Positions 1 to 60,279 of a stretch of 64,000 nt of DNA are shown one piece after another. Within the stretch, counting starts at the first letter, position 1. Each line of letters opens with the position of its first letter. The DNA comes from Albifimbria verrucaria (Eukaryota; Ascomycota; Sordariomycetes; Hypocreales; Stachybotryaceae), in contig JAHREC010000049.1 of the NCBI GenBank assembly GCA_020081605.1, positions 2,914,001-2,978,000 on the forward strand, given 5' to 3'. The notes beneath the pieces were generated by a model. It made no database searches. It was not told where the DNA came from and was given only the letters and a program-made list of their open reading frames with translations. A program made the translations under genes and the position numbers.

Positions 1-3000
1 TTTGCCGTCACATCAGACGGTGTCATCCTTCCGGGTATAATGCATCGCCTGATCTAGGAAAAAGCGCCAATGGCATACACACACTTTTTTTTCTGCGACC
101 CAGCGCCATTTCAGTTATGTCATATCCCCACGGTAGCCACTGTGAGTTAGCATAAACTGTTGGTGGATGGAGGGAGGGTGGAATTGGCACGGATGTCATC
201 GTGCTTCCAAAGCCAAGCCGCCCCTCCAAACATCTGCCACCCCCACCATTTGGTCTTCCTTCTCACTTCAGAACTGTCTCTGCTACCCACCATTCGTTCT
301 GGAGCACCCACACCACACAATCACCGGATCTGCTGAACCACCAGCAGCCCGTCGAATCAAGACAGCCTCGCCCGGGATGTCAGTGGAGCGGTCAGGAGGC
401 AACACCATACTGCAACCTTGATGACATATGCTGCTACTTCTTCCCGACGACATATCAGGAAACCACGCAACGACCATGGCCCAAGCTGCAAGGCGATAAT
501 AAGTCGTGACTTCAACGATTCTATGGATCATCATGCTTTTGGTGATGTGGACCGGAAATCTGTTACCAGACGCTGATGGCATTTAGTATGGGGCTCGCTC
601 ACCCGAGGCTGCAGTCCTCTGTTCCCCATGAGAAGGTTCGAGATTGAGGGCTGCGTGCATGCACATACTCACGGTACATCCCCCTCCTTCTTCGACGGAT
701 GCTTCCCCGTTGGCCTCGGTGCATGAGACAATGGGTAGCATTCCAAACCCGCAAGGAACACACTACATAGAGGAGCATGCTGTTGTTTGGTAATGGCTAC
801 ATGTAGGAAGGTACTGCTACCGTCTCCCCACATGCCGGGCGTCGCATTTATCGCGATGCTCTTAGTATATGTGTGCACTATGAAGCTTACTGGACTACAC
901 ACCACTTGCTCTCACCGCCATCCAGCTCGCCACTAGATAGGATCGTGAAAGGAGCTGGCGCATCTTGACGGCTGCTAGACCAAGCAACGACCATTCTCCT
1001 CACACCAATCTACGATGGCTTAGTTTTAATGTAAGCTTTCCTCCAGGATTCATCGAGCTGAATTTATGGGTGCAATATTTCACTGCTGAGATCAGCTTCA
1101 CAAGCAGCCACCGAAGTCCCTGCGACAAAGGGTGCAAGTGATCTGATAGCTAGGCCCCTCTGCCGCTCTTAACCTGCTCTCTGCACGATAATTGATGTAC
1201 ACCTCCCGGGGATACCCGGCTTGATAATAGGAAGATGACGGCTGTAGAGTGCGATGCTTGCTGCATGGCTTTTGTTTAAAATGGCTTCTGCGCCATCCCC
1301 GATGGATCTACTTCGTCATGACCGTGAATTGACCGTTCGCTTGGGACCGTCCGCGAAGGTTGAGATCGTCCATGGACAATTATTCGGGCACAACCCGACA
1401 CGGCTGGGCGCGTTTCGTGCTGGATGTACTCGGATTTTCCCAAATGGTCTGTCCACACACCACTTGCCGAGAGGGAGGTTCCACTCAAGAACCAAACTTG
1501 CCAGAGTCCCTTGTACAGTAGCGTCTACCTACTGCAGGAAAACCAAGATCGACACCATCCACAGGCGGGCTTCATAACCACTCACACCAGAGCATGCCTT
1601 GTTTCATCGTCATGGACGGTTGAACGCCAACCTGAAGTTAGTGTATGCGGGCGAATGGAATCCAGTACAGATCTGTCTGTGAAATAAGGGTATAGAAGGG
1701 CTTGATTAGCTCAAACGCCGATCGGATCCCCGAAGACCATAGAGACGGCTGGGAACGCTATGGCGTTCAGGCCAAGAGCTCCATCTCAAGCGCTACCGGC
1801 GGCTGTTCCAGAAAAGCGGCAGCGTGATGGAGAGACACGCTTGCGCCATGTAATAACTATCGTCGAGTAAGCACGCAAAGGATGATTTGCATGACAGAGA
1901 TTTCTAGCATCGTGATACAATGCTCAAGTGCATATAGATGCTGTGCCGCATAGTCTGTCTGCAACGCGAGGCGATACGCCCGCAACCGCATCCGCTCACC
2001 GCCGCCCCAGAATTGAGCGGTCCTGGGAGAACTGGGGACTGTGCGTTTCGGGGGATGACGCGATGCGACACGTCCTGGTATATCGCTGGGACATGCTGCT
2101 CTCTGATTCACTAGCCGGCCTGCAACCTGCACGCTTTCGCATTTGTGCGCACCAGGCCATCCTCTTTGGGGTTCGCGCCACAGCTTACCAAACCGAAGAT
2201 CCAGGGTCTTAAGATCCTGAGACCCTGCGATCCCATACAGCACCGGCCAGAAAAGCCACGGCAAGTACCAGGTACTGCGCCGTATGTTTGGTTGCACCAA
2301 ATGCCGTCAGCAGCAGAACGTACTGTAGATCGGCCATTTCAGCCCACGGATAGCCACGGGAGATCTTTTCCTCTTCTCGTCCAGATGTACCTTTCTGGGG
2401 TGATTGTCTCTGCAACACACAGGGTCTGATCGTGCAAAATGCCTTTCCCAGATCGTCGACGCGGACGGATGAATGACTTGTACAACGGGGCCCAGCCATC
2501 TCTAGGGTGGTATAGCTCCGGTTCCGGTTCGGCTGGGTGGGGAAGAGGAAAGTAACGGTAACAAATGACATATTCGCTGTAACATTCAACGCTCACATTT
2601 GGTAGATGCAACTCTGCTATGCTTCCGTGCTGGACCTCAGCATGCGAATCGGAGGGTTTTACCTGGGTCTCCCGTTTTGGGGCGGCCTTACCCATCGTCG
2701 TTAAGCAGGCCGTCTTCGGATCCGGCACGGCTCCGTAGCAGACCACACAGCAGGCGCGCTAGACTCCAACACCCATGCCCTGCCCCCATGAGGATAAAGC
2801 ACAGCGGATTGATCGATGCATTGACAGCAATCTTAAGCATCACCGCGCGTTCAAAATGAACGCAAGCTCAGTTATTGGTTCGAGACGACCGTTACCGCTA
2901 GAGCGAAGCTAAGGTAGCAAAGCCAACGCCGGCTTCAACCCCACAGTCGGCGGAGTCGCGTTCTATCGGAATTAATGAATGCCGATGACGTCGTTAAAGA

Positions 3001-4155
3001 ACACCCAGACACGTCCGTTTCACCATCTCGACAACCCGCGCATGGAGGGGTTGTATGCTTTATCTCGGGCTTTGTCAGGAAGGCCGCAGCCAATTAGCCA
3101 TCGACGGCGCTCCGGGTTGGTTTGTCATCGACGGCTGTTTATCTTTCGGAGATATCGAACTACCGAGCTGACTACATTTGGGCCAGGCACGGGCAAGATG
3201 AACATGTCGGATATTGGTTGATTCATTGTCAGGCCAGAGATGCACGTCTCGGTCCAAGCCTTGCTGCGAGACATCAGACGAGACCAGAGCCCGTCTAGTT
3301 GCATGCCTTTGGTACTTGTGCCTTTCCCAGCGGTAGCGCCATATGGGATTCTTGGAAAACGCATGGCACTAAGGCATTGGTGGAGATTTCATAGACTAGG
3401 ATGCCTCGTCCTCAACGTGAGGCTGCTTGACCGCCTACACCACCACGAATAGTGCTTTCCTGACATGCGGCACGGCAACACATGCGCTCACACAGACGCA
3501 ATGGCGGCCCCGGGATTTCCTTTCATCGCTAGCGGGCTTGAAGTGGTCGGAGCTTGGCCGACAGCATCTTGAATCACGATGTGCTGCTACAAATGCGATT
3601 AGCAGTAGCCCCTGATCTACGACATCTGCAGGGCGATTAATGTGAGATCTTTCCGCCAAGCACCCTTGGTGTTGACTCAAGCAGCTTAGGGACGCTGGCC
3701 CCGCTCTTGTTGTGCCAACGGCAACAAAAGGCTCGCGTGTTATTGGAAATAGAAACCTGCATGGTTGTGTTTACGAGACTTCACGCGCGGTTGGGAGACT
3801 TTGTATCCGGTACTTGATGTGGGTTATGCCTCAATCACACGAGGCTGACAGACAAAGAGTGAGACGACATGAAGTGGAATACAGCGGGCCCCATCACCAG
3901 CGGTGTGATCAGCTTGCTCCAGTACAGAATGCGTGATGCCGTCACTTTGGACCTACAGAACCGGGCTCTCGGCGTGACACGGCCTTGTGGTCAAATTCCT
4001 CAACAGTCGAAGTAGACAAATGATGACAGAGGCCGAATGCCGTGTGCCTGAATGTCTTTCTTCTCTAGTAATGTTTTGAATATTTTGTACAAATAGATAT
4101 CGTATAGTTTACCACTCGCGAATCATACACATGCCGGCTTCTGACACTCTTCGTA
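1..4155. other. Left-end region with no supportable gene
   Basis: Only short, overlapping open frames occur on both strands, with Cys/Arg/His-rich compositions typical of non-coding fungal DNA. I see no recognisable domain, no consistent intron-joined frame, no tRNA-like fold and no tandem array. The frames around 1857-2746 on the minus strand include a hydrophobic stretch, but no neighbouring frame extends it into a family I know. A diverged gene or old mobile-element remnant cannot be excluded. Confidence 0.5.
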
Positions 4156-5097
4156 TCAGGGCTCGATTGGCACCAGCCTCTCCAAAGTTCTGAAGCCATC
4201 ATGAGCAAAGCCCTTGGTGACGTCGAGCTTATATTGCTTCCCTTGACGTTGATGTGACCCATTCCCATATCCGTCCAAGCTGCTCGCACGCCCTGGAAGA
4301 GGTCCACGAAGGCCCGGCCCAGTCTGCGGAACGGCATTGTCAGGAGATGCTCCTTGTCAAACTTCCACAGCTCCTTGCGTCGAGCCTCCTCTGCCTGCTG
4401 GCGCTCCAGCCGTCTCAGGTGGGGGACGTAGGCCTCGGGTAGTGAAAGTCGGGACTTGAGGCTGACGTTTTCCAAGTTCGCGACGATGACCTTCGGCCGG
4501 AGGAAGGGCAACATGCGCTTCACGGTGACTTCCATCCGCGGGCCTGCTCCGGTTGCGGAGCCAGATTTAGCAGCTTGGCCAGCACTCTGAGGCAGGAAGC
4601 GAATGCTATGAATGATGTTGGGTGTCTTGGCGATAAGGTAGAAGCCCATTGATCCCAGCAGCACATAGGATGCGCCGAAGACCACGCCCACCCATTGCGG
4701 GACACCTTCGGGTTGTTTCACCGCGGTCGGTGCCGTGGTGGCCGTCCATATCAAGATGCTGATACCACTCGTCCAGCAGCCAAAGTAGAACCAGAAGTGG
4801 GAGGGGCCCTCGTACAGGGTTGTGGGCGTGGGTTTGTTCGCGAGGTTCTTGATGAAGGCGTATCTGCTCTGCGCCACCGGCGACGAGGCCTCCTAGGCGA
4901 TGCCGGAAGCGCCGCCTTCCTGGAAGCTGGAGGTCTGGGGCCTTGTTGAGAGACTTGGCAGCTGCTTGTTGGAGTCGTGGGGAGATGGTAGAGAAGCGGG
5001 CTCGGGCGGTCGAAAACTCGGAGAGGACGAATCGGGACGACGATGCGGCGCCAGACCGGAAGCCGGGGAGCAGGAGCCCTCGAGAAAAGCAGGCCAT
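4156..5097 (-). CDS. Predicted mitochondrial inner-membrane protein (possibly TMEM223-like)
   Basis: The ATG at 5097 opens an Arg/Ser/Ala-rich leader of about 55 residues (MACFSRGLLLPGF...) that looks like a mitochondrial presequence. The body has two probable membrane segments, around SHFWFYFGCWTSGISILIW and VGVVFGASYVLLGSMGFYLI, followed by a conserved basic C-terminal half (KRMLPFLRPKVIVANLENV, LLTMPFRRLGRA). The frame shifts near 4890-4905, between leader and body, and again near 4240, after which it ends in FRTLERLVPIEP and a stop at 4156. Both shifts look like single missing bases. The overall form resembles fungal TMEM223-like proteins, which in animals support cytochrome oxidase expression. 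That assignment is by memory of overall shape only, so the function is uncertain. Confidence 0.65.
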
Positions 5098-6332
5098 GTC
5101 GACAGAAATCAGCCGCGGTCAATTGCCTGCAGACTCGTATACGGATTCGGGGAGACGAACGCTGGTGCTCAAGCACTCAGCTATCAAGTTGCGACTGCGG
5201 GCTGGACAGGGAAAGCTTGAAGCAATTCAGACAATTGGAAAAAAGAGGTACCAGCCCGAAGCGGTTAGGGCGTGAACTAGCCTAGCATGTACATGCACAG
5301 GCTATTGCAGGAATTTTTTACTGCTGGTCTTGAACGCCTGGCAGGGGTTTAAAAATGCTTTGGGACGAGAAAGGCTGGATTTCGTATCCGCTTTAATCCC
5401 GGAGCTAAGGTGTTGCCGCTATAAGAGCGTGTTGATTTTTATTGTGAGCTTCGAAATTTGAGGATTGAAAAGGGGTTGGGAAAAAATGAAATTAATGAAT
5501 GGTATACTGTAGAAAGAACAGATGTATCGATTATATAACTGAGGGGATTACTCGGTAGAGTCGAAGTCTAGCATGTCATTGGATCTCCTTATACGTTCAG
5601 CCGTTCATCAACCTGGGAGGAAGATAAGGTTAGCTTAAGCATAACCGTTCTCTAAATTTTTTCCTTCTAATTTTAATTATATACACAATCTGAGTAGAAA
5701 ATAGTGACCTGCATTGAGTGGTTTGAACTTTTTAACAAATTCTTTAGTTATGTTCGTTAGCGATGGTCGACTTACACGCCTCCATTTCTTGCCTGGCGTT
5801 GAAGTGTGTTGAGGCTGTGAGTGGGACTTGGCCTAAAAGCGGCCAGGGTACCAGCCAACCACAAGCTTGGCTGGCTGTCGCCTTATCAGGGACCGGACTA
5901 CGGCGAAATAAAGAGGCGCTGAAGAGAGGGTGACAAAATAAAGTGCTCAGTAGGAGACATTCATGGTGGGATTGGATGCATACTTTTTACAGTAGAAAGG
6001 ATTGTGTGTTGAAGAAAGAAAAATAAGTATGAGTTAGCTATAGAGTCAATATGCAGTTTAGCTTAATTATGATTCATTAAACAGTCTTTGTCTAACCATT
6101 TTAAAGCTCCGTATCATTCGGGCCCAGTCCCGGACACTGCCAACAGGTACCTCCCACCGTCAGCGACTCTCCCGGTCCTTCGCCGCATTATTTCTGTCCG
6201 CCTCGTGGCAGGCCCTTGGTCCGTGCCCGTCCGCCCAATATCGGCGCTCCCCAACAGCTTCAAGTCAGGTCTCTCAAATACCTCGAACCCTCACCGAACC
6301 TCCAACTCCCCAAGAACTCAATTGGGCTTGTG
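5098..6332. other. AT-rich intergenic segment with PDX1 upstream region
   Basis: From about 5280 to 6090 the base composition is clearly richer in A and T than the flanking genes, with runs such as AATTTTTTCC and TATATACACAATC and no sustained open frame. The last 200 nt before PDX1 return to a C-rich composition typical of a fungal promoter and 5' leader. No gene or transposon signature is visible. Confidence 0.5.
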
Positions 6333-7682
6333 ATGGCATCACTCACCGGAGCCTGCCGCGCGTCGGCTCGCCTTCTCTCCAGCCGGGCCGCTGCTCGAGG
6401 TACGTCTCTCGCCTTGTCCCTCCCCGTGTCTCCTCCGTGGGAGAGAAAAACAGCGGGAAAAAAGTTGGCCCGCTAACCATCTCGCCAAACCGCAGGCTTC
6501 ACCTCCTCGGCGCGATGCCTGGCCGCGCAGAACTTCTCCATGCCCGCCCTCTCGCCGACCATGACTGAGGGAAATATTGCGACCTGGAAGGTTAAGGAGG
6601 GCGAATCCTTCAGCGCCGGCGACGTGCTGCTCGAGATCGAGACCGACAAGGCCACCATGGACGTCGAGGCCCAGGATGATGGTGTCATGGTCAAGATCAT
6701 GTCCGGCGACGGCAGCAAGTCCGTTCAGGTCGGCACCCGCATAGCCGTCGTGGCCGAGCCCGGCGACGACATCGCCTCCCTCGAGATACCCGCCGACGAG
6801 CAGCCCAAGCAGTCCGCCCAGCCTCCCAAGCAGGAGTCCGCCGCGTCCCAGGAGCAGCAGTCCCAGCCCGACCAGAAGAAGAGCGCCGCCCCAAGGCCAC
6901 CGGCGAGAAGTTCCAGCAGAGGTACCCCTCTACCCCTCCGTCGGCCACCTCGTCAAGGAGCACGGCCTCAGCGAGGACCAGGTCAACCAGATCAAGCCCA
7001 CCGGCCCCGGCGGCCGCCTCCTGAAGGGTGACGTCCTGGCCTACGTCGGATCCATCAAGGCCGAGACCCCCGGCGCCGTCTCCGCCCGCTTCGAGAAGCT
7101 GTCCCATCTCGACCTCAGCAACATCAAGGTCGCCGCCAAGAAGGAGGCCCCTAAGAAGGAGGCTGCCCCGCGCCCAAGGCCCCTGTCGTCGAGAAGCTGG
7201 AGCTGCAGGTCCCCATCTCCATGGCCAAGGTCATCGAGGTCCAGAAGAAAATCCAGTCCACCCTCGACGTCTTCCTGCCTCTCTCCACCTTCATCAGCCG
7301 CGCCGCCGAGGTCGCCAACACCGACCTTCCCTCCCGGCCCGCGCCCCGACCGCCAACGAGCTCTTCGACCAGGTCCTCGGACTCGACAAGCTCAAGGCCT
7401 CTGGCTCGCGAGGCTTCTACCTCCCCAAATCTCCGCCATTCCTCCCACCTCTCTGCTTGCTTCTCAGCCGTCCACCCCAAGAAGCAGGACATTATCGACA
7501 TCCTCGCCGCCCCCAGCAAGAAGCCCGCTCGTCCACAAGGTATCCCCGTCGTCCCTGGCCTGTCCAGCGGCGCCAACGTTTTCAGCCTGGTGGTCCCCAA
7601 GAGTGAGGAGGCGAGGGCCAGGACTTTCCTGGAGCGGTGCAAGGTCATCCTGGAGGAGGATCCCGGACGACTGGTGTTGTAA
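6333..7682 (+). CDS. PDX1: Pyruvate dehydrogenase complex protein X (E3-binding protein), mitochondrial
   Basis: This protein tethers dihydrolipoamide dehydrogenase (E3) to the E2 core of the mitochondrial pyruvate dehydrogenase complex. Exon 1 begins at ATG 6333 with an Arg/Ala/Ser leader; an intron at 6400-6495 follows. Exon 2 carries a lipoyl domain (MPALSPTMTEGNIATWKVKE; lipoyl-lysine in EIETDKATMDVEA), an Ala/Pro/Gln linker, a peripheral subunit-binding domain (HLVKEHGLSEDQVNQIKPTG... LLKGDVLAYVG), and a short C-terminal region ending ANVFSLVVPKSEEARARTF. It lacks the acyltransferase core and HxxxD motif of E2, which favours PDX1 over E2. Six single-base frame shifts occur at about 6889, 6925, 7166, 7344, 7427 and 7475, in runs of C or A; each is repaired by one extra base. 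I treat it as intact in the organism. Confidence 0.88.
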
Positions 7683-7871
7683 AGCCTTTGTCTCACTTCC
7701 ACATGTATTCATATAGAGAATCGAACGCCTAGATGTTATTATTATTACTGCCACAAGCTAATGAACCCGCCTTATCATCTAAATCATGTGATGTTCTCAG
7801 AACGTGTGGTACATGGCAATAATCACATATCTTAACCACCAGCAGTATATCCGTAAGTGGAATCAGTCTAG

Positions 7872-9567
7872 TTAGCTCATAGCCACCTCTTCGTCAACTT
7901 CCCAATTGTCCCACGTCGCCCTATCGTAGCCATTTGGCCGCGTGCTTCTCATGTGGCCAACACGAAGCCTTTGGATTGCCAACGCCTCACGTGGCCACGC
8001 AATTATGCCACCGTACGGGGTGCTCCAGACTTGTTGCATCATTTCCTTGGCAAACAAGTACGGGTGGGTATGCTTCATGCTGTGCAACGCTCGCCGACCA
8101 ACCTCGTCGACCGAGTCGTCGTGTCTCAGGTGAAAAAATGCCGGGTCGTGGGACTTCCGAAGCCAGCCTTGCAGCTCGGGAGGGTACAGGCCTAGCGAGA
8201 GCAGGAAGAGGTCGTACTGGACGAGACTCGTCCTGCATATCCATGATCCACCTTGGGTCGCGCGACGATAGAGGCCTGTCAGAGCAGCGACACAGCCCAG
8301 AGCGCCGGTCCCATAGTCTGACATGGGAAAAGGAGGCACAACCGGTTCATCGAGCCCCAGAAAACGTCCTTGCTCCCAGGCTACACCAGTGATGCAGTCC
8401 GCAATCTGCTGCCAGCCTGGCCGAGATGCCCACTCAGCACCAGTATCGGGAGGTAACCCAGATCCGCCGAAGCAATCTTCAGTCACATATACAATCCCTC
8501 GACCTCTTTTGCGGGCTAGCTGAACCAATCTTTCCGGGCCATAGCCCAACCTTTTAAAGCTCCAGGCCGATAACCATCAATCAAGACGTCTGCCGTGTCG
8601 AGCAAACCCTCAAAAGTCAGTCGGTCAATCGGGTTTCGAAGATCAAGAGCGGTGGTGTGTTTGCCGAGGTTCACGTCTATCTGGAAGAAAGGAACATCTG
8701 GAAGATCTGGCGATGTAACCTTGAGCACGTCGGCGCCATGCGCAGCAAGACATCGCCCGATGGTAGGCCCGGCAATCACTCGGCATATCTCCAAGACCCG
8801 GATGCCTTGCAGCGCTTGATCTGGTCGGCCGGCAGCACGATTTGCAAACGACACCTTGGCCGTTGCCTCCTCCAACGGACGCACAGTAAATGGAGGCAAC
8901 CTGCCCAGGGCTCGAGCGTGAGAGGTCCGGCAAAAGTCGGCCCATTTCAGTGCGGGGCTCCAGCTTGACTCTCTTGTGCATTCAACGCTTCCAGCTCTGA
9001 GACAGTGAACCGCCGGACTGCCTCACCGATTGTGTGTAAGCATTCTCGATAATCCTGGAGATCAGGCTGGAATGCTTTAAGGCCCAACATCTCAAGTGTT
9101 TTGGTTGCATCAAGGGAACCGTGTATGTGATAGTATTCGCTGGAGTTCTTGGTCTGATACAGGTTCGCCGATAACCTTCTATACAGTATTGATTGAGCCC
9201 GGTTAATATCGGTATCTTTGGAGAGATGTTGTTAGCTGGGAAACGTGAAGTAGCTGATACTGTCTTCTCTAACCTGGTATTCTATTTCTAATCTTTGGGT
9301 CTCCTTTCCGACGCCATCGATGGATGTCATATAAGTCGACATAAGAAAACATCCTATTCTAGAGATATCTATAGAGATGTCTCTAGCTTCTACACTGTAA
9401 CGTAAATCTGCGATGGCAGATGCAGTTGAGCCTTCCAGGGCTCGGATAGCAGCAGTAGCTTCTTGCTCCTTCAGTGGGCACGGGAACAGCGGTAGATCCG
9501 CGCGCGAATGGCAGGGGCTGTGAAGGTTGCTTTTGAACATGCTCCACGCATGCGTTAGGGAGCTCAT
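7872..9567 (-). CDS. CaiB/BaiF family (class III) CoA-transferase
   Basis: Class III CoA-transferases move CoA between carboxylic acids through an aspartyl-CoA intermediate; the family also includes alpha-methylacyl-CoA racemase. The protein is of the long fungal type. An N-terminal half (LFPCPLKEQEATAAIRALEG, RAQSILYRRLSANLYQTKN, ECLHTIGEAVRRFTVSELEA) precedes a core containing LEICRVIAGPTIGRCLAAHG, DVNLGKHTTALDLRNP, LIDGYRPGALK and PFPMSDYGTGALGCVAALTG, and ends in WDNWEVDEEVAMS. The Asp of DLRNP lies where the family's catalytic aspartate region is expected. An intron fits 9216-9260. One-base shifts occur near 8552 (T4 run) and 8954 (G4 run). The start is uncertain: ATG at 9567 or 9540. 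The substrate cannot be told; the gene sits alone, convergent with PDX1. Confidence 0.85.
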
Positions 9568-12500
9568 GCTGGCAGATACTGACCAGATGGGCCAGCGCTT
9601 GAGCTGCACCCTCTTTGACCGAGTAGGCTGACCGCTTTCGGAAGCATGAAGAATGTTCCTTGGCTATAGTCCTGCTGCTCCTAATTCTTGCAGACATTCT
9701 CCGGAGGTATTGATACCGAGCTTGAATGTCGGACTAATATCTGGACTTGATGATGATGAAACGAGCTTAGGACAATCAGCCAACGCCCATAAAGCGAGAG
9801 ACTGGGCTACTAGTTATGTTGATTGCGACTTTTCTCCTGTGTATGATTTTTCTCATTCGACTTATAAGCCTGCCATGCCCTTGTTTGCTCTCCCCAATGG
9901 CTGAACCATAGAGTGACTTGAACACTTAAATGCAATCTCTGACTGGTCACATTCAATAGGGTACTTAGAGCCATCAACACCGCGTAAACTGGCCAAGTTA
10001 GAGGTAACAGTTCAGAGGAAGTTCGCCGCATGCACGCGGTCCACTTCGATATGACATGCATTAGTGTTCCATGGCATCCGAGCATCCGCGGGCAGGTATA
10101 AGCGGCCCCCTGGCACACGGAATGGAACCTAAAGTGCCGGCCGTTGTACGGATGCTATATTGAAGCTTGTTATAACGAGAATGCTTAGTCTTTGCAGTGC
10201 AATCATTGGAGTAAATGTTCAACCCATGATCCGTAGGACGTGTGTGATGCAGGGATTCGGCCGGCCTGGCCCTTGTGATTGTGATTGACCTGGTATATGA
10301 GAAACATAACCATCGGGACCAAGAAACTTCTTCTCTTACGTGACGTGCATAGTCTGCGACACAGCATCAACGATTTGCCAAAGGGAGGGAAAGGATGGAA
10401 TATCGTCCCAAACTAGCAGATGCGTGGTGTGCTATCCGACTCAAGTTGTCGGCAGCTGTCCTGAGTGACTTCTGCCTGGGCACGGAAGTGCTACACTCAC
10501 ATTTCGGGCTTTAGGATTGAGAGATAACTTGGTAGTAGTCGCAGAATTCCTTTGTTTGACTTTTCTTTTTGGCCTTACCGCCATCGGATGAGGTCTTGCC
10601 CGGCTTCGTTATAGGAGGGCATTGGTCCGCGGACCAGCAGCCGGTGGCATATGACTCCCAACTTGGGGCATGAGTGCCTCAACCAAAGGAGAATAGCCGC
10701 CACACGAATAGATAAGTCGTTAGCAGCATTGCAACGGACAATACTTATACAAGTCACATGCATGCTGTGCGTGGTCGACGAGACTCAGGAATTTGTTTCG
10801 TTCACCAGAGGATGGCTCGTCTGCGAGCATGAGGTATTGCTCTGCAGAAGCCAACCTGAAAGGCGTGGAGAATATTCGAGACCGCAGCTGGGACCACAGG
10901 TATACGAGGTCACAAACGTACCGATCACGACAACAGAACTGTCTAGGCTCAGCGGGTTTCGAAGTGGCTGTCGTAGGCGTAACCCCTGCATTCACGCCCG
11001 TGCCATCATTTTCCACACACTGGCCACTCACCGACTTTGTGAGAGAAGGCTTCACATTGCTTTTTGTCCGTCAAGCATTGTCTTCTTCCAGGGCCGTTCA
11101 CCTCCTCCGCACTTCACGATACAGTATTGTACAGTAGTCCTCGGCGGGCATATGCGATCGGCAGCGTTAATTCGAAGGGACCCAAGAACGAAGGCTGTCG
11201 ACTTGAATGGGTGTCTTGCTCCTTCACGCGGGCATTGGTGGCGACCATCAGTGTGTAGCAGCCCACTCGCGCCGCGAATGTTGATCCTGTGGTATGGCAG
11301 ACGTTACACTCGGTTGACCCAATATGCCAATGAAGGCTGCCTTTGCTGCAGAGGTCATCACCCATCACAATTCTTGCATGCCAACGTCTCTAAAGGAATG
11401 ACTGGTGCGCCAAACAGCATCCTCGCCATCGCCAGCCGCTTGACCGCGTGACTTCCTAGCCGGGAATGAGGCTGCCGCATGTAGAGGACCATTAGGGCCT
11501 GAGAAGGTAGGCTGGTTTTTGCTTGGCTAAATATATTGCATCGCTTTCGAGGTACCTACCGGTACTGTACTGTAACATCGGAAGCATCAAGATCATCTGA
11601 GCCTTGCATCTCGTCTTTGGCACTGTAGAAAGCAGACGCGGGCCCGTGATAGAGACTTGAGACAAAAAAAGAAAGTCTAGGTCGATTCTTTTTCACCGCA
11701 CAGTATAGTACTGTAACAAAGGCACTATCAAGTCAAAGAAACCGAACGCGTAGGGAGAGTCAGTTTATTGACCGCTTGGAATGTGTCCAATCGCTCCCCG
11801 CCCTTGGGAGTGAGGCTTGGCACACAACAATAGAATGCACCTATTATTGAGGTAGAGGTCCAATGGGATGTTTCTCCGGCCCAAGGTCTCAGTGAAAGAC
11901 CATTTACGGACATGAATCCTGGTAGATGGGTGCGTCCGGGAGGCGCATGGGCCGGTGAGACATGTGTGTGTGTGGAGAGAAGGAGGAAGATGGAGGTTGA
12001 AGGGAGGTTGCAACGTACAGTATTTTGGCCGAGAACCAATTAACCACTGGCGGGCCAAATGCGGAACTGGTGAGGCGGCAACAGCCAAGCAGCGAGGATC
12101 AGCTACAACTTCAAGGCATGCATGCAAGCAAGTGTTGTCCCGCGCCCTGAAGCTTAGTGGAGGCAGGTATACATAGTACTATCGGTGCAGGGTACAGGGT
12201 GCGTGCAGGGCACATCGCGCAGTGCATGGTGCATGCCTTAGCTGCTTTTAGTGCGCATGCCTCAGCGCCAGTGGACAGGCGGCTCCGTGTCTGCTTCTCC
12301 ACTGCAGCCAGATCTCCAGCGGGCATAGCGGGGTCAACAGCCCTGTAGGTTGTTAAGTTTAGGTGCATCATCCGGCGTACCAGCTTCCCGGTGCCCGGTC
12401 CACATCCGAGCTCCCATCCAACCTCATTCCACCTCCCTCTCCACTCCAACCACGAGCTCCCGACCATCAGCTTCCGTTGCCGTCTTGTTCGCCTCTCGCT

Positions 12501-47766: not shown

Positions 47767-49474
47767 ATGGCGACCGAGACCACTGCGACCGCAGCCGGAG
47801 CCGCGCCTGCGGTGAAGCTACATGGCAGGGCGTTCTATGAGAGCATTGGCAGCCCCAAATTTGTCGTGGCCCCCATGGTGGATCAGTCAGAATTTGTGCG
47901 TTTCCCTCCTATGCGACACGAGTTGAACGACGCTGACAGACTGAATAGGCATGGCGACTACTATCCCGATCGTTTCTCACGGACGAAGAGAAGTCGAAGA
48001 TGCTTGCCTACACCCCCATGTTCCACGCCCGTCTCTTTGCGCAGGAGGAGAAATACCGAAAGGCGCATTTCCAGGCCATTCGTCCTGGCACCTCCGAACC
48101 ATGGCTGGACGGCAACCCGACCCTCGACCGACCACTGTTTGTTCAGTTCTGTGCGAACGATCCCGATATGCTCCTGGCCGCTGCCAAGGAGGTTGCCCTC
48201 ACTGCGACGCTGTCGATCTGAACCTGGGCTGCCCTCAGGGTATCGCAAGGAAGGGTAAATATGGCGCTTTCCTGCAAGAGGACCAAGACTTGATCTTCCG
48301 CCTCATCAACATCCTCCACAAAGAGTTGTCTATTCCTGTGACGGCCAAGATTCGTATCCTGGAGACGAAGGAGAAGACTTTGGAATATGCGCAGAACGTG
48401 CTTCGAGCAGGTGCTTCTATCCTGACTGTCCACGGTCGACGAAGAGAACAAAAGGGTCACTTGACGGGAATTGCGGACTGGAAGATGATCAAGTTCTTGA
48501 GAGATAGCCTACCACCAGACACTGTCATTTTCGCGAATGGCAACATTCTCCAGGAGGCTGATCTGCAAAAGTGCCTTGACGCAACAGGTGCGGATGGCGT
48601 GATGAGTGCAGAGGGAAACCTGAGCGACCCAGGTCTCTTTGCCAAGCCGCCACCCCTGGAAAGCACGAGAGGAATTCTGGGTTGGTAAGGATGGCAGGTC
48701 TGGCTGGAGAGTCGACGCTGTAACCAGGCGTTACCTGGATATCCTGCACAAATACGCCCTGGGAAGTGAGCCCCCGCCCGACGACCGCTCTTTATTCCGG
48801 GAGACGATGTTGCGTGGATGACGGAGAGTGATCAGGCAGAGTCAGATGGAGACGAGCCGGCCAGGAAGAAGGTGAAGCGAGATAACTACAAGGAGTTGCA
48901 GGCCTCACCCAACTTCTCGGCCGTACAGCCACATCTATTCCATCTTCTGCGCCATTTTGTGTCCAAGCATACCGACATCCGTGACATGCTGGCCAAGGCT
49001 CGCCGTGACGGTATTGCCGGCTACGAGAGGGTGTTGGCAGCCGTGGAGCGCAGGGTTGCAGAGGGCTTAATCGAATACGAGAAGACCGACGGCAAGAGCT
49101 TTGCCGACGAGCTGGTCGTTCTCGAGAAGAACAAGGAGCTGCTTCCTGCGGACGAGAGCTCGGCTGGCACCATCTACGAGTGCAAACGCCCCTGGTGGGT
49201 TGTACAGCCCATCATCCGACCGCTGCCTAGCGAGGCACTGGCCAAGGGCGCCATCAGCATGAAGAAGAAGGATAAGGAGAAGGCCGTGGGTACTGAGCAG
49301 GCAGCATCGGGAACGGGCAGCGGCACGACGAGTGCCACGTTAACGCCTGGACCTGTCGAAACGCCAGTCACTAACGAAGCTGGTACGGTGTCACAGGCTC
49401 AACAAGAGAAGGATGAGGAGGCGGCTCAAAAGAAGGAAGAGATCGCGTCGAGGGACAACTTGGTGGCTGGTTGA
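47767..49474 (+). CDS. DUS1: tRNA-dihydrouridine synthase 1 (D16/D17)
   Basis: FMN enzyme that reduces uridines 16 and 17 in the tRNA D-loop with NAD(P)H. ATG 47767 is followed by LHGRAFYESIGSPKFVVAPM and VDQSEF, an intron of about 54 nt, then AWRLLSRSFLTDEEK. The core is classical: PLFVQFCANDPDMLLAAAKE, the catalytic Cys in DAVDLNLGCPQGIARKGKYG, IPVTAKIRILETKEKTLEYA, ILTVHGRRREQKGHLTGIAD, and VIFANGNILQEADLQKCLDA. A helical C-terminal domain (PNFSAVQPHLFHLLRHFVSK) and an Ala/Gln/Glu-rich tail end at VAG. One-base shifts at about 48196 (CCC), 48670 and 48808 are read as missing bases. In this last region the annotation joins two frames into one protein. Confidence 0.92.
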
Positions 49475-50735: not shown

Positions 50736-53700
50736 TTACACATCCTCTTCCTCCCCTCCTGCTTCTTCCTCTTCCTCTTCTTGTTCCTCCTCCTCCTCGC
50801 TATAATTCCAATCAAGCATCATTTGACAAATCTCCATTAGTCTCGCATCATTCGGCGTACCACCCAATGGATACTTCTCCACCACATCGGCCTGAGCTTT
50901 GAACAATGATTTCATGACTTTGCTAAATTTTTCCCCAGGTAAAGTTATGATTTCCTCGGGAATCTGTGATCTCATACAATCGTAAAGCTTAAACAGACCA
51001 ACTACGCCTCTCTTTTTCACAATGAAGGCCATTAGCTTGCAATTTTTCTCCACGAACGTTGCTCGAATGATCGACTCATCAATTTGGAAGGGAATTTGTG
51101 CATGGCTTATAGCAAGTCCCATTATATCTGAACCGTGGTTCATATTCTTTGTCGTAGCAACGATGACCTTGGTGTCAAAGTTGACCTTGCCAGAAGAATC
51201 CCAAATGGCCAAGAATGTGTCCACGTCCACTTCGGCCGCCGCGACTGCTAGGATTTCTTGAGCGATTCCGACGTCAGAACCTCGATGGGAGAACAGCAAT
51301 TTGATACCATGTAAGCAGGCCTTTTCGTTTCTTATAACAGCTTTAATGAGATCCTCATTAATTTGAAGTTCCGGCCTTCGGGTATCTAAAAGTAAGTTGA
51401 GCATCCATGCCTCCTCGGTATCTGGGTCTGGGACACCGAGTCCTTTTAAAATGACACGCTCAGTGAGCTGTATTTTTGAACTCTCGATTGCGAAGACAGC
51501 GTTCCAAAACTTTACGTCAGTAAACAAGTATCTGAGTGCATATAGGAGTGTATCCTCGTTGATACACAAATCACCTCGATGCATAACGAGCAGAGTCGCT
51601 CTTTCGTCCTTGCTGTCGATGGCGGTACGTATATGTGCATTTGTTACTGAGATTATCCTTCTGCCCAGCTGGAAGAAGCTGGCCACGCCTTCCAGTAAGC
51701 CCAAATCTATCGCGAATTCAAAATTTGCTGTTGAAAACACCTCGTTCAACCCAAATCGGTCGACAAACATGTCCAGAATTTGAGAAGTCATTCTGGGGTT
51801 GGTGAAAGCCCACTTAACCACAATATCTGAAAGCTCGAGTCTAGGCTCAGCTAAAAACACTTGCAACGCCTTTGCATTGAACGCCATTACTATCGAGACG
51901 TGAAAAGCTTCACGTCGCGATAGTTCTTCTTTCGCTCACTAACGATAAGATCCAGGAATTCGGCATCGTCTTCTAAGGATTTAAGATTATCTAACGTCAG
52001 TTTTGTCAGAGGCAAACCAAGCTTCAATAAACATGAGAATGTTTCGAAACTGCCGCTATGAATAGCATCTACCAGTGGTGACTTGATGGGCGAACACTCT
52101 TCATCTTTTATCCTGATGTTCTGTAACGACTGGAGAATATCCTCTGTATACCCATCGGCGTACACGGCTCTAAATAGAGGACTTTCATACTGCTGCATGG
52201 CGAAAAGGTCATCTATGATAGTCCAAAGCCCATAGACAGCGGCAATTGTCAAGGGAGGCACGTCCGCCGACCCAGCAGAGTATTGAATTTGTATTTCGGC
52301 TTCACTCGCACCTATATATCCCCACCATGCTTGCAAGACTGATGAGTTTGCAGTAAAAAACTTAACGTGTGAACTCTGAAGAGTAAACTCCTTTTGTGCC
52401 ATCCGAGCATGATATGGCCAGTAATCGCAAGCGTATTCAAGAAGATGACCAGAAGACTGAGCAGACTTACTGCTTTCGGGAAGATGCCAAATTATTTCAT
52501 CTAGACATCGATACGATAGGTCAGCGTGAAGTTTTTTATCATTCTTGCCATATCGAGCGTCAAGTCTATTGTAAATAAATTCCCTTGCTGTCTGATGTAG
52601 GAGTGTTACTTGTTCGGTTGCAGCTTCACATAAGTAAGTGCGAGAGATGACAGCGAAGAATTGTAGATCGCCTATGCGTTCACGCATGAACTGAACGCGT
52701 GTTTTCTCATCTTCCTCGGTGTCAAGTTGGCACGCCTCCGAGAGCTCGAGGAGCGTCATGGGACGTTTTGCTGCAGCAATGAAGCCCAGTATACGCTGGT
52801 AACTGTTCATGTCCTCTTCTGATGACTTGAGGAGCGATTCGAACAAGTTTGTGTAAAGTGAATCAAGGCCTTTGGGAAGTCTCTTTAGATGTTTGACGGC
52901 ATTCCATGAAGACAATGTTTGTAAATCTTGGTATGCAAAGCCAACCCAGAGAAACGTGCCTTCAGCTTGTAATTCGAGTATATTTATGAGTTCTTCTTTA
53001 GTGGAAGATGGATAATTCTTAGCCTCGGAAAGTTTCTGTATCGCATGATGAATATATTTCTGGATTGCCTGCCCAAGTTGCGGATATGAGGCCAAGTCTA
53101 GATCCAAGAAATTACCTAGTTGGTGACGAATTTCAGGATACGGCCGACTCAATAACAGCACGCTCAATCTTATCTGCGAGCTCGATTGTCTGAAAATCTC
53201 TTGGATCTGACGATAGAGCATGCTTTGTGACTCTCTGGGGCATTCATCTATCGCATCTATAATGCAAAAGATGTGCCTGTCATCCTGAAGTGTAACAACT
53301 TCCATCAATAACTGCCACAAATGATAAAAACCATTGAATAAGCTGTCGCCTAGACGCCTATGCTTTTCTCGAATTGACTTCAGTAGAAGTTGCGGGTAAG
53401 TTTGGAACAGATGCCCTAGCAATCCTCGCATGATAGACACCAGGTTGCTTCTCGCTTCATATTTGGAGTCACATAGAAAATATGTTAGACATTTCCTTGT
53501 GTCATTTTCGAAGCGAGCCGACAAGCGGTCTATGAGATATGTGGCGATTGTAGATTTGCCTTGACCGGGGTTCCCGTGTAGCCACAATATATTGGGTGGT
53601 GCACTGTTGCGTGCTTGGTTGCTTGCCTCTGGGTTCAACCATGTGGTAAGCTCATCAGTATCAAGAACCCAATCACAGGTGCCGTCGACATAACCGCCTG

Positions 53701-54047
53701 TCTGATCCTTACGAGCTTCTCGTTGAATAGACGGTATAGTAAGGAGGTCTGTGAATAAGTCTCTCAAGAATTTGGCACCTTCTTCTAACCCGCTAGACTC
53801 CGAAGTACCTGTTGGGCACTGTTAGCCTGTATAACTAACGATAGAGTAGCGGGCTAGGGATTCCGACCGAAATAAATATTATTTGCATTATACTGGGCGC
53901 CAGAACCTGTGTTTGCATATTCCCTCCTTGATTGGTATTGACATTCTGAGAGCCTTCACCTATATTTCGATAAGTGCTAAGAGGCACATGGCGTGCGGTG
54001 TTTCTAAAGTCAGAGGTGCCATTGGGAGATGCTGGCCGCTTCATCAT
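50736..54047 (-). CDS. NLR-like NACHT protein with N-terminal amyloid-type motif and C-terminal repeats
   Basis: A fungal NOD-like receptor candidate. The N-terminus (ATG 54047, MMKRPASPNGTSDF) carries an Asn/Gly/Gln-rich motif: GEGSQNVNTNQGGNM, then NTGSGAQYNANNIYF at 53868-53913. An intron (53809-53867) leads into TSESSGLEEGAKFLRDLFTD. The NACHT domain follows: Walker A in LWLHGNPGQGKSTIATYLID (about 53570) and Walker B in HIFCIIDAIDECPRESQS, then VLLLSRPYPEIR and GTFLWVGFAYQDLQ. After an ankyrin-like stretch comes a region of degenerate repeats of about 35-40 residues (LCINEDTLLYALRY, IQLTERVILKGL, LQINEDLIKAVIRN, FQIDESIIRATFVE). The protein ends in an acidic tail (EEEEEQEEEEEEAGGEEEDV). 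Shifts at about 51903 (A4) and 53912 (T3) divide it; each is repaired by one base. Total is about 1,070 residues. It is divergent from the SesA gene, 326 nt away. Confidence 0.88.
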
Positions 54048-54373
54048 GGCGAACGGTTGCGACTTGAACACAGGAAATGTATAAAATCGAGGGTCTGGGC
54101 TGCTTCGGTCTCATCGCCACATAGGAATATATGTTGACAAATCTTCGACAGCGTGCTTGATTGGTCAGTCGAAGCGGAAATCTCCTTTGGAAATCAGGGT
54201 CAACCAACAAACAGCTGAACAACCCCGGCCCCATCTCTCTCTCTCCACGTAGGCAACCGCGGCACTGTCACATACGCCGTATATCTACTTTCTCTTGAGA
54301 TACCTTGAAGATCCCGCTGGCTTTCCACCCTTATCGACCGATCTCTCATTCACACAGAAGGGTTGTCAACAAT
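54048..54373. promoter_or_regulatory. Short divergent promoter shared by the NLR and SesA genes
   Basis: Only 326 nt separate the two start codons, so both promoters must lie here. The plus strand holds a CT-rich tract (CATCTCTCTCTCTCCACG, about 54231-54248) and GCCGTATATCTACTTTCTC near 54274, before the SesA start. The arrangement would allow co-regulation. Confidence 0.5.
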
Positions 54374-54981
54374 ATGTCAGGATTTGAGGTTTTTGGTGCT
54401 GTTACGGGTGTCATTACCGTCATAGAGGCTGCGATTGAAATAAGGCAGAGTCTTGTTAATGCCTGCAACGCCCCTCAAGCATTCACGGAGGTTGGCAATA
54501 AGCTTCCCTCGTGCGAAATGTTCTCCGTACGATCGAGGAGGCGGCCAGACAGGCAAACAACGAAAATTATGGCACAAACCTCATCCCTCTTGTCAATGAC
54601 TGCAAGTCCAAGGCTGAGCAAATAATCGGTATCTTGCGGCAATCCATGTCAACGGTCCAAGAATTTGGGTTCCAGCGGTTCATGCTAGCAATGAAGCAAT
54701 CCCAACTAAACGCCTTGTTGGAGGCGTTGATGAAGGACATATACCTTCTCGCCGCTCATAACACCATCTGTGGAGCACCTCAAGCACGAGCAGATGAGGT
54801 GTTGAACTCCATACGCAATCTAATCGCGGCACATGAACAGGCCAGCAATAAAGGGCCGACTTATAACAATTGGAATGGCACACAAACGATCAACAATGGG
54901 CCAGACAACTCAAGCTATCACAACACAGGAACTGGCCAGATCTATGTTGGACAAACGATGAACTTCGGTTCCAATCACTAA
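54374..54981 (+). CDS. SesA-domain protein with C-terminal amyloid-type motif
   Basis: Candidate cell-death effector partner of the adjacent NLR. ATG 54374 gives MSGFEVFGAVTGVITVIEAA, the start of the SesA-type N-terminal domain found on fungal NACHT/P-loop proteins and on stand-alone effectors. The helical domain continues RNVLRTIEEAARQANNEN, LVNDCKSKAEQIIGILRQSM and FMLAMKQSQLNALLEALMKD. The last 45 residues are Asn/Gly/Thr/Gln-rich: GPTYNNWNGTQTINNG, then NTGTGQIYVGQTMNFG (54922-54969), ending SNH. This tail resembles the motif at the NLR's N-terminus. A single base is missing in the CCC at 54506-54508. The protein is about 200 residues and has no signal peptide or further domain, as expected of stand-alone SesA effectors. 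Cell-death activity is inferred from family context. Confidence 0.85.
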
Positions 54982-57140: not shown

Positions 57141-59695
57141 TCACCTAACTCCCCGTCTTCCCTTCTTCGTCGGCGGCGGCGACCTCGAGACGCTGTCGCT
57201 GTACCGTCTGCGCTTTGGTGGGTTGGGGCTCGGCGAGCGAGGCTGGCCGCTTCCGCTTGGCCCGTCGAACGCATCCATCCTGCCGCCGCGTGGCGCACGT
57301 CGAGGCGGTGGGCTTGGCGATCGTGAGTAGGATGCGCTTCTGGGTCCTCGACGAGGTGGAGGAGACAAGCTATCTTGCCTGGGTCCCCGTCGGGGTGGGG
57401 GCGATCTCGAGTCGTATGAAGGTGAGCGGCTGTCTTTCCTACCACCCTTTTGTGGACCACTGCGCACAGAAGAACTGTTCCTCCTCTTCTTGTACGAATC
57501 AGCACTAGCATCCCGAGCACGACCGCGCCTGGGCGGGCTGGCAGATTCATCCTTTCTTCGTCGAGGAGGCGGCGACGGAGAGCGGCTGTAAGAGCTGTAG
57601 GAGCCGCTACGGGCTCGCGCACGACCAGCCCTTGGTGGCGGCGATCGCGACACACTGCCGCTAGCAGCCCGTCGCGCGCGGGGTGGTGGGCTCGCCGAGT
57701 ACGACCCGCGGTTACCTCCGCGTTCGCTAGGGGTTACAGACCGGGAGTACGATCTTGAGCGAGAGCGGGAGTAAGAGTAAGAACGGCCCCTGCCCTTCCT
57801 GGGCGGTGATCCTGATCGTGTACGCGAACGGCCGCGATCAACAGCTCGTCGAGGAGAGCGAGACCGTGACCTAGACCGCGAAGAATAAGAGGAGCCGGTG
57901 TAAGAAGAGTAGCTAGAAACAGAATCCGAGTCGGAGTCGTGTGCAGCAGCAGGTGCAGGGAGGGTAGGCTTGGGCATGTTCTGCAGGTATTCTCTCATCT
58001 CCTCGGTAAGCGCACCCATACCGATACTGGTAAAGTAGTTGATGGAGAATCTGATGTTGCGGGCGTTGTCCTTGGGGAAAATGCCCTCGAGGTTAGGACG
58101 CAGCATCTCATCAGTCATGCGTGCCTTGAGCTTCGGCATGCCAATCTCCTCAGCAATGTTCTGGAAAAGAATCTTGATAAAGATACGACTGCTCGAGGTC
58201 GTCTCGTCCTCGTTCAGGTGGATCACGGACAGGCAGTGCCAGCCGAGGGCGTCAGAGGCGAACATGTGTCCAAACAACATGGCAATGTTGCGGAGCTTGT
58301 TGTTCTCGTAACGGTGAATGGTCTCGTAGTACTTTGCAAACGCCTGCTCGAATAGATCGCACCACAGACGGTTGATCTTGGAGAAGCGCTCACCGATCAG
58401 ACCAAAGAACTTGGTATAGGTCTTCTCCTGTGAGCAACACTCCACGATCATAGAGGAAGCTCTGGTTCCTGGCCGGCTGGGAGGTTGATCTTCATGAGCT
58501 TGTGCACAGCTTCCTCAGGGTCCGCACTCGACATAATGGTCAGGTAGATGGTTCTTCGAAGTTTCACCAGGTCGGCGTTGGACTGGTCCTTGATCTCCAT
58601 AGCCTTCGTCTCGGTGTCCTCCTCCTCTTCGGAGCTCTCGTCTTCATCCTCATCGTCGTCATCGTCATCGTAGTCGCTTCCCTCGCCCAAAATCTCCGAC
58701 TTTAGCTTCTTGTAAGCTTCTTCGTGCTCCTCCCATTCAGGGTCGAACTTGAAGATGTTGAGACCATCCTGAACGTCAATCTCGCCGTCCAGCTCGACTC
58801 CGTGAGTGATCTGATCCTCCTCCTCGACCAGGTCCAGCTCCTCCTTGATAGCAGGGTTGTCCTTGAACTTGTCCTTGCGCACCTGGAACAGCACCTCAAT
58901 CATGTACTGCGTACGCTTATCAATATCGGCCTCGTGGAGGATGTTTCGGAACTGATCAAACACGACCATGGCGATAGACGGCTGCATCTCCTCCAGGTAC
59001 TGGCCAACCTCTCGGCAGAAGCCAACGGCAATCTCGACACTGTCGTCGGTCGGCTTGTGTAGCAGCAACAGCAGGATCTGACCGGCCAGCATCTCGTGCT
59101 GAACCTGCTGGTTGATCAGGTGGGCGAGGAAGGTCGTCGAAGAGAGGCAAACGGCTTTGTCGTTTCGCTTGAAGCCCTTACGGAACTGCATTACCAGGCG
59201 CTTGACAAGAAGCTCTCCAACCTGGGGCAGCTTGGTGTTGACAATGGCAGCCATGGCGGCATAGATGGGGGTGAAGGGCAAACTGGCAGCCTGGGCCTTC
59301 ATGATGGAGCGGCAGAACAGACCCCTGCCACGGATGAGGTTCTCGCCGAACAGCTCGGGGACGATATGCTTGATGTTGGCAGTGTTGACCTTGTTGATCA
59401 GACCATTGATACTCTTCTTGAGCGCCTCCCAAGCCATGCGCTGGTACTCCTTGCTGGTCTTGTCGGTGATCTGGGCCTGTAGCGCCCTCAGCCTCGCGGG
59501 GGATGTATGTGCCGCCAGATCGCATGTTGAGCAGCTTCTCGTACTCTGCCTTGGCCGCGGCCTGCTTCTCCTCCTCAGTTCGAACGGGCGCGGCGGGAGG
59601 CGGCGGCGAGCGCGCTCTCGCGGGGCGGTACGAGTCGCCGCCATCGCGTTGTCCCCACGGTCGCGACGGGGAATGTCGACTTCGGCCGACGCCAT
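57141..59695 (-). CDS. CWC22: Pre-mRNA-splicing factor CWC22 (MIF4G + MA3 + RS tail)
   Basis: Spliceosome component that recruits eIF4A3 in organisms with an exon junction complex and is needed for the first splicing step. ATG 59695 gives [14 protein letters not shown]. Near residue 65 lie [16 protein letters not shown] and [20 protein letters not shown]. The MIF4G domain then shows [40 protein letters not shown] and [20 protein letters not shown]. An acidic linker ([20 protein letters not shown]) precedes the MA3 domain ([59 protein letters not shown]). The tail is a long Ser/Arg/Pro-rich RS-like region with many SPPPRR units, ending KKGRRGVR. One-base shifts near 58447 and 59495 and about 59650 are taken as missing bases. 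No intron is needed. Confidence 0.93.
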
Positions 59696-60279
59696 GGTGC
59701 GGGAGGTTGCGCGCGCCTCGACGGTGCTCTGTGCAGGTTGGTGTATCCGAGATATTGGGGAGAGGGCCGCAAGATGGGATCGAGATGGTTGGGAAAACCA
59801 AGTCTGCGCACGCGGTGATGGTTTCTTGTTCTACTGCATGGTTGGAAAGGCTGGCTCGCTGCAGGTAGGCAGGAAAAAATCTGTGCACGGACCAGCCACG
59901 GCTCCCAGGTACCTCCAGGTAGCCGCCGTCATACCAGCTTTGCCTTTTCCCTTGCTACTCCTGCGCCCCTGCACTGTAGCCGCCAATCCCTGGTACCTTG
60001 GCAGTACAAGCCATCCGTTGTAGAGCCTTGGATCCCCTACGGAAAAGGGCCCAAGGTACCTTATCGGGAAGAGCTGCACCCAGAATTCGCGACTCTGATC
60101 TGGTCGACGTGGAAGCATCGCTTGCTTCCCTGAATCTGAGTCTCGACCTCGACCAACCTACCTTGACTCTCCACGCACGCGCCCCAACCTTCACCGTCCG
60201 TGTCCCTTCTTTTCTACTCTCCCACGCTCCTTTGCATCAATACATCTCTTGCATTTCTGCACCAGCATTCTCCTCGACA
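59696..60279. promoter_or_regulatory. Divergent promoter region between CWC22 and DPM2
   Basis: About 580 nt between two divergent starts. It includes GTACC-rich segments (CAGGTACCTCCAGGTAG at 59907-59923; AAGGTACC near 60055). The right half is pyrimidine-rich, as in DPM2's leader. Confidence 0.45.

Follow-up and report, generated by a model that had tools for sequence, protein, structure and literature searches.

The question raised by the locus described here is whether two neighboring genes of Albifimbria verrucaria, one encoding a nucleotide-binding oligomerization domain-like receptor (NLR) and the other a SesA-domain effector, signal to each other through matching amyloid-type motifs, and to which motif family these motifs belong. 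The locus lies in a stretch of 64,000 nucleotides (the window) from a genome of 48.4 Mb assembled in 41 contigs. The NLR gene lies on the minus strand between a start codon at 54047, identified by eye, and 50736; it comprises exon 1, an inferred intron and a long exon 2. The SesA gene occupies 54374..54981 on the plus strand. The two genes are adjacent and divergently oriented, as in the sigma-motif system, with an intergenic region of 326 bases between both start codons (54048..54373, from the coordinates). The initial annotation, made from the letters alone, had described them as a candidate signalosome, possibly with a new variant of the motif. The reading considered likely here is that they form a sigma-type NLR/SesA pair, a known kind of fungal death-signalling switch; the gene layout, the domain identities, the sigma-like repeats at the expected ends and intact relatives have been seen directly. 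This type of pair is already in print (PMC3321046, PMC12261475), sigma-type NLR/SesA pairs having been described in 2012 (PMC3321046), and the pair of the window is a further example, the open literature having been compared by family and not by locus.

Amyloid-type motifs of the receptor and the effector

The sigma motif is defined by the repeats A (GxGxQFNxx) and B (GGTQNINT) in threefold arrays (PMC3321046). In the NLR of the window, the motif NTGSGAQYNANNIYFG is found at 53913-53868 on the minus strand, ahead of the NACHT domain and with its last G contributed by exon 2, and the motif of SesA, NTGTGQIYVGQTMNFG, ends three residues (SNH) before the stop codon at 54979-54981 on the plus strand. 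Both motifs are located where the initial annotation had placed them, on the same strands, before NACHT and at the C-terminus of SesA, and its seven identities in 16 ungapped positions were reproduced (seven is reached by 121 of 200,000 composition-preserving shuffles and the score by 32 of 200,000). The second, upstream repeats that it had reported, GSQNVNTN and GTQTINNG, both exist, but that of the NLR is read in another frame than the main motif. In a blind local comparison of the open stretches (at least 15 residues) of the NLR strand with the SesA piece, the two motifs came out on top with a score of 45; the next two matches scored 34 and involved the upstream repeat of the NLR, against the same SesA tail, and a stretch inside NACHT. 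Both motifs share the 16-residue spacing N-x-G-x-G-x-x-[YF]-x6-[FV]-G, a pattern picked after the pair had been seen and present elsewhere in 3 of 118 SesA tails and in one of the 120 listed NLR relatives. Relatives were examined as the best 120 of 158 SesA matches and the best 120 of 181 NLR matches, the NLR search having scored the 7,993 candidates sharing most words.

Taken alone, the pairwise match is modest, because 334 of 20,000 shuffles reach the local score of the fuller stretches (39 and 42 residues, the NLR with X at its frame break); for the 36-residue cores, the corresponding count is 558 of 20,000. These counts are what could be said for a low-complexity coincidence, that is, two N/G/Q-rich stretches of separate origin. 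Such a coincidence is regarded as very improbable: the motifs sit at both expected ends, tails of this kind occur in 112 of the 120 listed SesA relatives, and on the NLR side the idea is largely refuted by the homology of the motif to that of a protein from Ilyonectria destructans (P0004).

Among the named relatives whose N-terminus is complete, P0004 is the best, with 40% identity along 96% of the NACHT piece. Its N-terminus contains three 9-residue G-x-G-x-Q units that score 22.1 bits with NACHT_sigma (PF17106), below the cut-off of 27.6. The NLR motif of the window, with X at the frame break, aligns along its whole length with these units, with 16 ungapped identities in 36 positions, and none of 100,000 shuffles does as well. 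The units GEGSQNVNT and GSGAQYNAN precede NPHP3_N, so that A- and B-type repeats are recovered across one frame break and the inferred intron; the first and last units of the array are clear and lie two 9-residue units apart, while the middle one spans the break. The upstream repeat or repeats YRNIGEGSQNVNTNQGGN are encoded at 53919..53972 and the last repeat ANTGSGAQYNANNIYFG, whose final G is completed by exon 2, at 53868..53916 in a different frame, both on the minus strand. A sigma hidden Markov model (HMM) was built from SesA tails, starting with relatives P0123-P0240 (118 proteins, P0001 and P0122 being left out), of which 109 passed a length and pattern filter and yielded 108 distinct tails. 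With this model, the exon-1 piece upstream of the break scored 9.3 bits, the last repeat alone 13.6 bits and the X-joined motif 14.6 bits, in each case with 0 of 200 shuffles as high, and the last repeat was the top match (E 0.025) among all six-frame stretches of at least 15 residues in the window.

Several observations speak against a simple assignment of the receptor motif. The sigma HMM is unspecific, with a PUASM-like control (P0047) at 17.8 bits outscoring the NLR motif (a second such control, P0027, reached 7.7), so the model alone would not settle the motif class. At E<=10, PF17106 detected neither the NLR motif joined with X nor the C-terminal tail of the SesA relative P0001, and the NLR motif is split over two frames in the assembly. 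The motif nevertheless very probably belongs to the sigma family, as judged by its alignment with P0004. A new motif class on the NLR side was rejected on the P0004 match together with the sigma HMM, and the PUASM order F-x-G-x-G-x-Q-x-x-G-x-G-x-F is absent by eye. The N-termini of the NLR relatives vary, with sigma motifs in P0004 and P0043 and a PUASM-like pattern in 19 of the 120 listed (12 strictly), where for the 35 relatives with no recognisable Walker A the first 300 residues were scanned. Hand counts from the listing, irrespective of domain order, gave SesA (PF17107) in the same protein in 3 of the 120, alpha/beta hydrolase (PF12697) in 7 and PNP_UDP (PF01048) in 9. A PF17106 search of the whole genome at E<=1 returned solely C15:6618221 (22.4 bits); one of 14 control genomes gave a match and none was above the cut-off. 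Contig C15 harbors, on the minus strand of its segment L006, a PNP_UDP-domain open reading frame (ORF) immediately preceded by a strong sigma stretch (1483-1650 and 401-1507; 31.0 bits with the sigma HMM and 23.0 bits with PF17106).

On the effector side, PF17107 (cut-off 26.3) is recognized in both pieces of the SesA gene, with 32.5 bits in the longer and 19.0 bits, below the cut-off, in the shorter. An intact relative, P0001 (202 aa), is 94% identical over 157 aa and scores 70.3 bits. The tail YNNWNGTQTINNGPDNSSYHNTGTGQIYVGQTMNFGSNH (54862..54978, plus strand) has one clear B unit, NGTQTINN, a degenerate middle repeat and a last A-like unit, GTGQIYVGQTMNFG, that lacks the canonical Q. The 112 tails mentioned above have G-x-[GN]-x-Q within the last 60 residues, and the database annotates PF17106 on many of the listed SesA relatives. 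The tail is conserved in P0001 (2 mismatches in 41 positions versus 8 in 116 for the domain). Its last 16 residues have a spacing shared only with P0130, P0216 and P0235 among 118 other listed tails, and are identical to these at 11 to 12 of 16 positions by eye. When a tree was built from the SesA domain only (113 of the 120 listed matches and three fused NLRs), P0216 and P0235 were also among the four proteins closest to P0001, at distances that are large throughout (at least 2.25 from P0001). Two results count against the assignment of this tail: it barely exceeds shuffles in the sigma HMM (5.4 bits, with 1 of 200 as high) and it is missing from the six-frame list of the window at E<=5. Membership of the SesA tail in the sigma family is considered fairly probable.

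The suggestion of a possible new motif variant found no support, since the NLR side is sigma-like (P0004) and close SesA tails already exist in P0130, P0216 and P0235; a new motif class on the SesA side is unlikely for the same reason, and what had been taken for a new variant looks like a small existing tail subtype. A more specific idea, offered tentatively and thought rather unlikely, is that the SesA of the window, P0216, P0235 and P0130 form a sigma subtype of their own with the ending G-x-G-x-[IQ]-Y-x6-F-G, served by an NLR whose near-canonical array has the same end spacing. If so, signalling would mainly involve the last repeat, the sigma code of receptor and effector would be asymmetric and SesA tails of the canonical form could be seeded by this receptor as well.

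In the predicted structure of P0001, helices extend up to residue 161 and are followed by a low-confidence tail; 57 of the 120 listed SesA matches entered the structure alignment. MLKL executioner domains and the coiled-coil domain of plant Rx are found among the structural neighbors, and because other helical proteins score equally, the structure is no more than compatible with a HeLo/MLKL-like death domain. Foldseek gave no match at E 0.001, and a sequence search of solved structures returned two chains (E 0.05 and 0.5), of which neither is likely to be related.

Possible partnership of the receptor and the effector

The matching of the motifs was evaluated by a rank test, in which 121 SesA tails (118 from the database and the genome's three) were scored against each receptor motif. 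The genome has a second sigma-like locus (L007, C36:3966500-3976400, about 4063-9839), with an ankyrin-type NLR (NPHP3_N 45.9 bits, Ank_2 129.5 bits) to which a motif GTGNQ..GTGDQ in an upstream exon presumably belongs, a convergent SesA gene and a third, weakly SesA-like gene (15.5 bits, below the cut-off), both with QWNH-type tails. In the following, NLR1 and SesA1 denote the genes of the window and NLR2, SesA2 and SesA3 those of the second locus. NLR2 served as a control and, by score, placed the two tails of its own locus at the top, SesA3 before SesA2 (first and fifth after normalisation); therefore, the test can detect matched tails.

For the pair of the window, the outcome is unfavorable. 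The NLR1 motif ranks the SesA1 tail 111th of 121 (48 versus 79 for the top tail) and 118th of 121 after shuffle normalisation; the NLR1 16-mer alone ranks it 36th (69th normalised) or, ungapped, 19th, and SesA2 slightly outscores SesA1 for the NLR1 motif (50 versus 48). Sigma gene clusters tend to within-cluster likeness of their motifs (PMC3321046), a tendency followed by the second locus and not by the pair of the window. The rank test weakens signalling within the pair without excluding it, because longer canonical tails with more repeats are favoured.

The contrast between rank 111 here and ranks 1 and 2 at the control locus, like the slightly better fit of SesA2, is what would be expected if the two genes were both sigma-type but non-partners, with the NLR using another sigma effector, or SesA another receptor, and adjacency being a relic; an NLR motif near canonical sigma beside a divergent SesA tail points the same way. 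However, adjacency is probably kept in a relative. P0001 and P0002, the latter a close relative of the NLR, are each listed on a contig of 7,846 bases, and because both contigs are equally long they probably share one, an indication that concerns adjacency and not orientation. The shared 16-residue spacing, rare elsewhere although chosen post hoc, also argues against separate partners, and this explanation is considered doubtful.

Partnership is favoured by the divergent adjacency, the equal 7,846-base contigs of the relatives and the conservation of the tail in P0001. We accordingly lean towards the NLR and SesA of the window signalling to each other; since the pair-specific matching on which the initial annotation leaned fails the rank test, such signalling is no more than plausible. 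Of the proposal that the pair works as an NLR/effector signalosome, the layout, the SesA domain, the motifs at the expected ends and the recurrence of the genes together stand in support, and the rank test is the part that does not fit.

Gene structure and frame breaks

Exon 1 of the NLR (53868..54047, minus strand) opens with the start codon at 54047 and closes with the sigma-type motif; it has a frame break near 53916, and its boundary was set by eye. A GT...AG intron of 59 bases (53867-53809), likewise read by eye, would join it to the NACHT exon; we infer this intron because, without splicing, the frame of the motif stops three codons past it (segment 53857-53955). Exon 2 (50736..53808, minus strand, with a frame break near 51920) has the domains expected of a fungal NACHT NLR, namely NPHP3_N at 115.9 bits (cut-off 24.8) and NACHT at 31.1 bits (cut-off 26.7), followed by a weak winged-helix match (GPIID_WHD, 22.3 bits, below the cut-off of 27), one DUF7104-like repeat (25.7 bits, below the cut-off of 26.1) and an acidic C-terminus. 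Near SesA, a small Ifi-6-16-like gene was spliced by eye (about 56563-56100, minus strand; PF06140 22.1 bits, under the cut-off of 29.1).

Within 4.2 kb the reading frame is broken three times, twice in the NLR (near 53.916 and 51.92 kb) and once in SesA (near 54.508 kb), and each break fits a one-base change. At 51.92 kb the NLR relatives P0002 (95% identical) and P0003 (97%) show an uninterrupted frame, and P0001 is intact at the break of SesA. Neither close NLR relative reaches the motif break: P0002 begins with the ATG that comes first in the NACHT exon, and P0003 at a more internal position. An open frame is supported by relatives at two of the three breaks, and for the one inside the NLR motif no close relative covering it was found, which is a further point against the reading as a sigma-type pair.

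That three breaks hit both genes could indicate a pseudogene pair decayed in this strain. This is thought improbable, given that two housekeeping genes of the window are split in a like manner. In a dihydrouridine synthase gene (47949-48688, plus strand), PF01207 profile positions 18-76 and then 79-226 are matched in neighboring bases, and in an MIF4G/MA3 gene (57141-59830, minus strand), MA3 positions 1-37 and then 39-112 are matched in two overlapping frames. Around the former, PF01207 was found in 2 of 5 ORF pieces, and 2 of 9 further ORFs had a family match and 7 none. The genes of the second locus are frame-split as well, by eye. Where the SesA gene of either locus is broken, and likewise at the NLR break near 51.9 kb, relatives have an intact frame. 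Assembly indels are thus the likely and simplest reading of the breaks, unproven for that in the motif, because relatives are intact at two of three and the two housekeeping genes are split likewise.

SesA1 (at 54508) and SesA2 (L001, about 1755-1857, minus strand) break at the same codon position, and a close relative of each is intact. A longer word at this break is expected just 0.23 times in 83.8 kb, and a shared sequence-dependent assembly error is the likely cause. The coincidence of position raised the idea of a programmed frameshift, which is not preferred because P0001 and P0122 read through uninterrupted.

Known systems, proposed mechanism and meaning

The closest described arrangement is the het-eN/sesA/sesB cluster of Nectria haematococca (PMC3321046), in which a NACHT NLR likewise stands beside SesA, with an N-terminal motif in the receptor and a C-terminal one in the effector, A- and B-type repeats and an intron near the 5' end that conceals the motif of the receptor; the het-eN motif was first missed because this intron had been overlooked (PMC3321046). 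Unlike that cluster, the window gave no SesB-like lipase domain by Pfam in the 14 ORFs scanned of 19 with at least 170 aa between 40 and 64 kb, and its SesA tail has one clear B repeat, a degenerate middle and a last A-like repeat with Q missing.

The GDQN amyloid motif, known from one Fusarium oxysporum NLR/SesA pair (2025; PMC12261475), similarly matches an NLR N-terminus to a SesA C-terminus with a comparable G-x-Q spacing. Its 13 fixed positions are poorly represented in the window, with 5 in SesA1 (312 of 2,000 shuffles as good) and 6 in NLR1 (34 of 2,000), and better at the second locus, with 10 in SesA2 (0 of 2,000), 8 in NLR2 (0 of 2,000) and 7 in SesA3 (4 of 2,000). The pattern discriminates little, as 88 of 118 SesA tails fit at 7 to 9 of the 13 positions, and GDQN membership of the pair of the window was rejected on the poor fit. 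The HET-s/NWD2 and PP/PUASM systems (PMC9815663, PMC5485727) share the proposed logic of an oligomerised receptor templating the amyloid fold of an adjacent effector, but their motifs belong to different families and most of their effectors differ too (HeLo, HeLo-like, PNP_UDP).

The mechanism proposed for the pair is modelled on HET-S/NWD2 and het-eN/SesA (PMC9815663, PMC5485727), and the splice, ligand sensing, amyloid folding, templating and cell death are all inferred. The NLR would sense a ligand via its putative C-terminal repeats and then oligomerise through NACHT, gathering several N-terminal sigma motifs that would adopt an amyloid fold. This fold would template the C-terminal sigma-like tail of the neighboring SesA, and the templated tail would free or activate the SesA domain. 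This helical domain most likely causes cell death by acting on membranes, similarly to the HeLo/MLKL bundles.

One-base errors of draft assemblies and an unannotated 5' intron can hide such motifs from annotation. With this pair, the described system gains a further sigma-type receptor and a SesA that is sigma-like but divergent. The genome contains at least one other sigma-like NLR/SesA locus, and the presence of a tightly and a loosely matched locus in one genome would let the specificity of sigma templating be tested.

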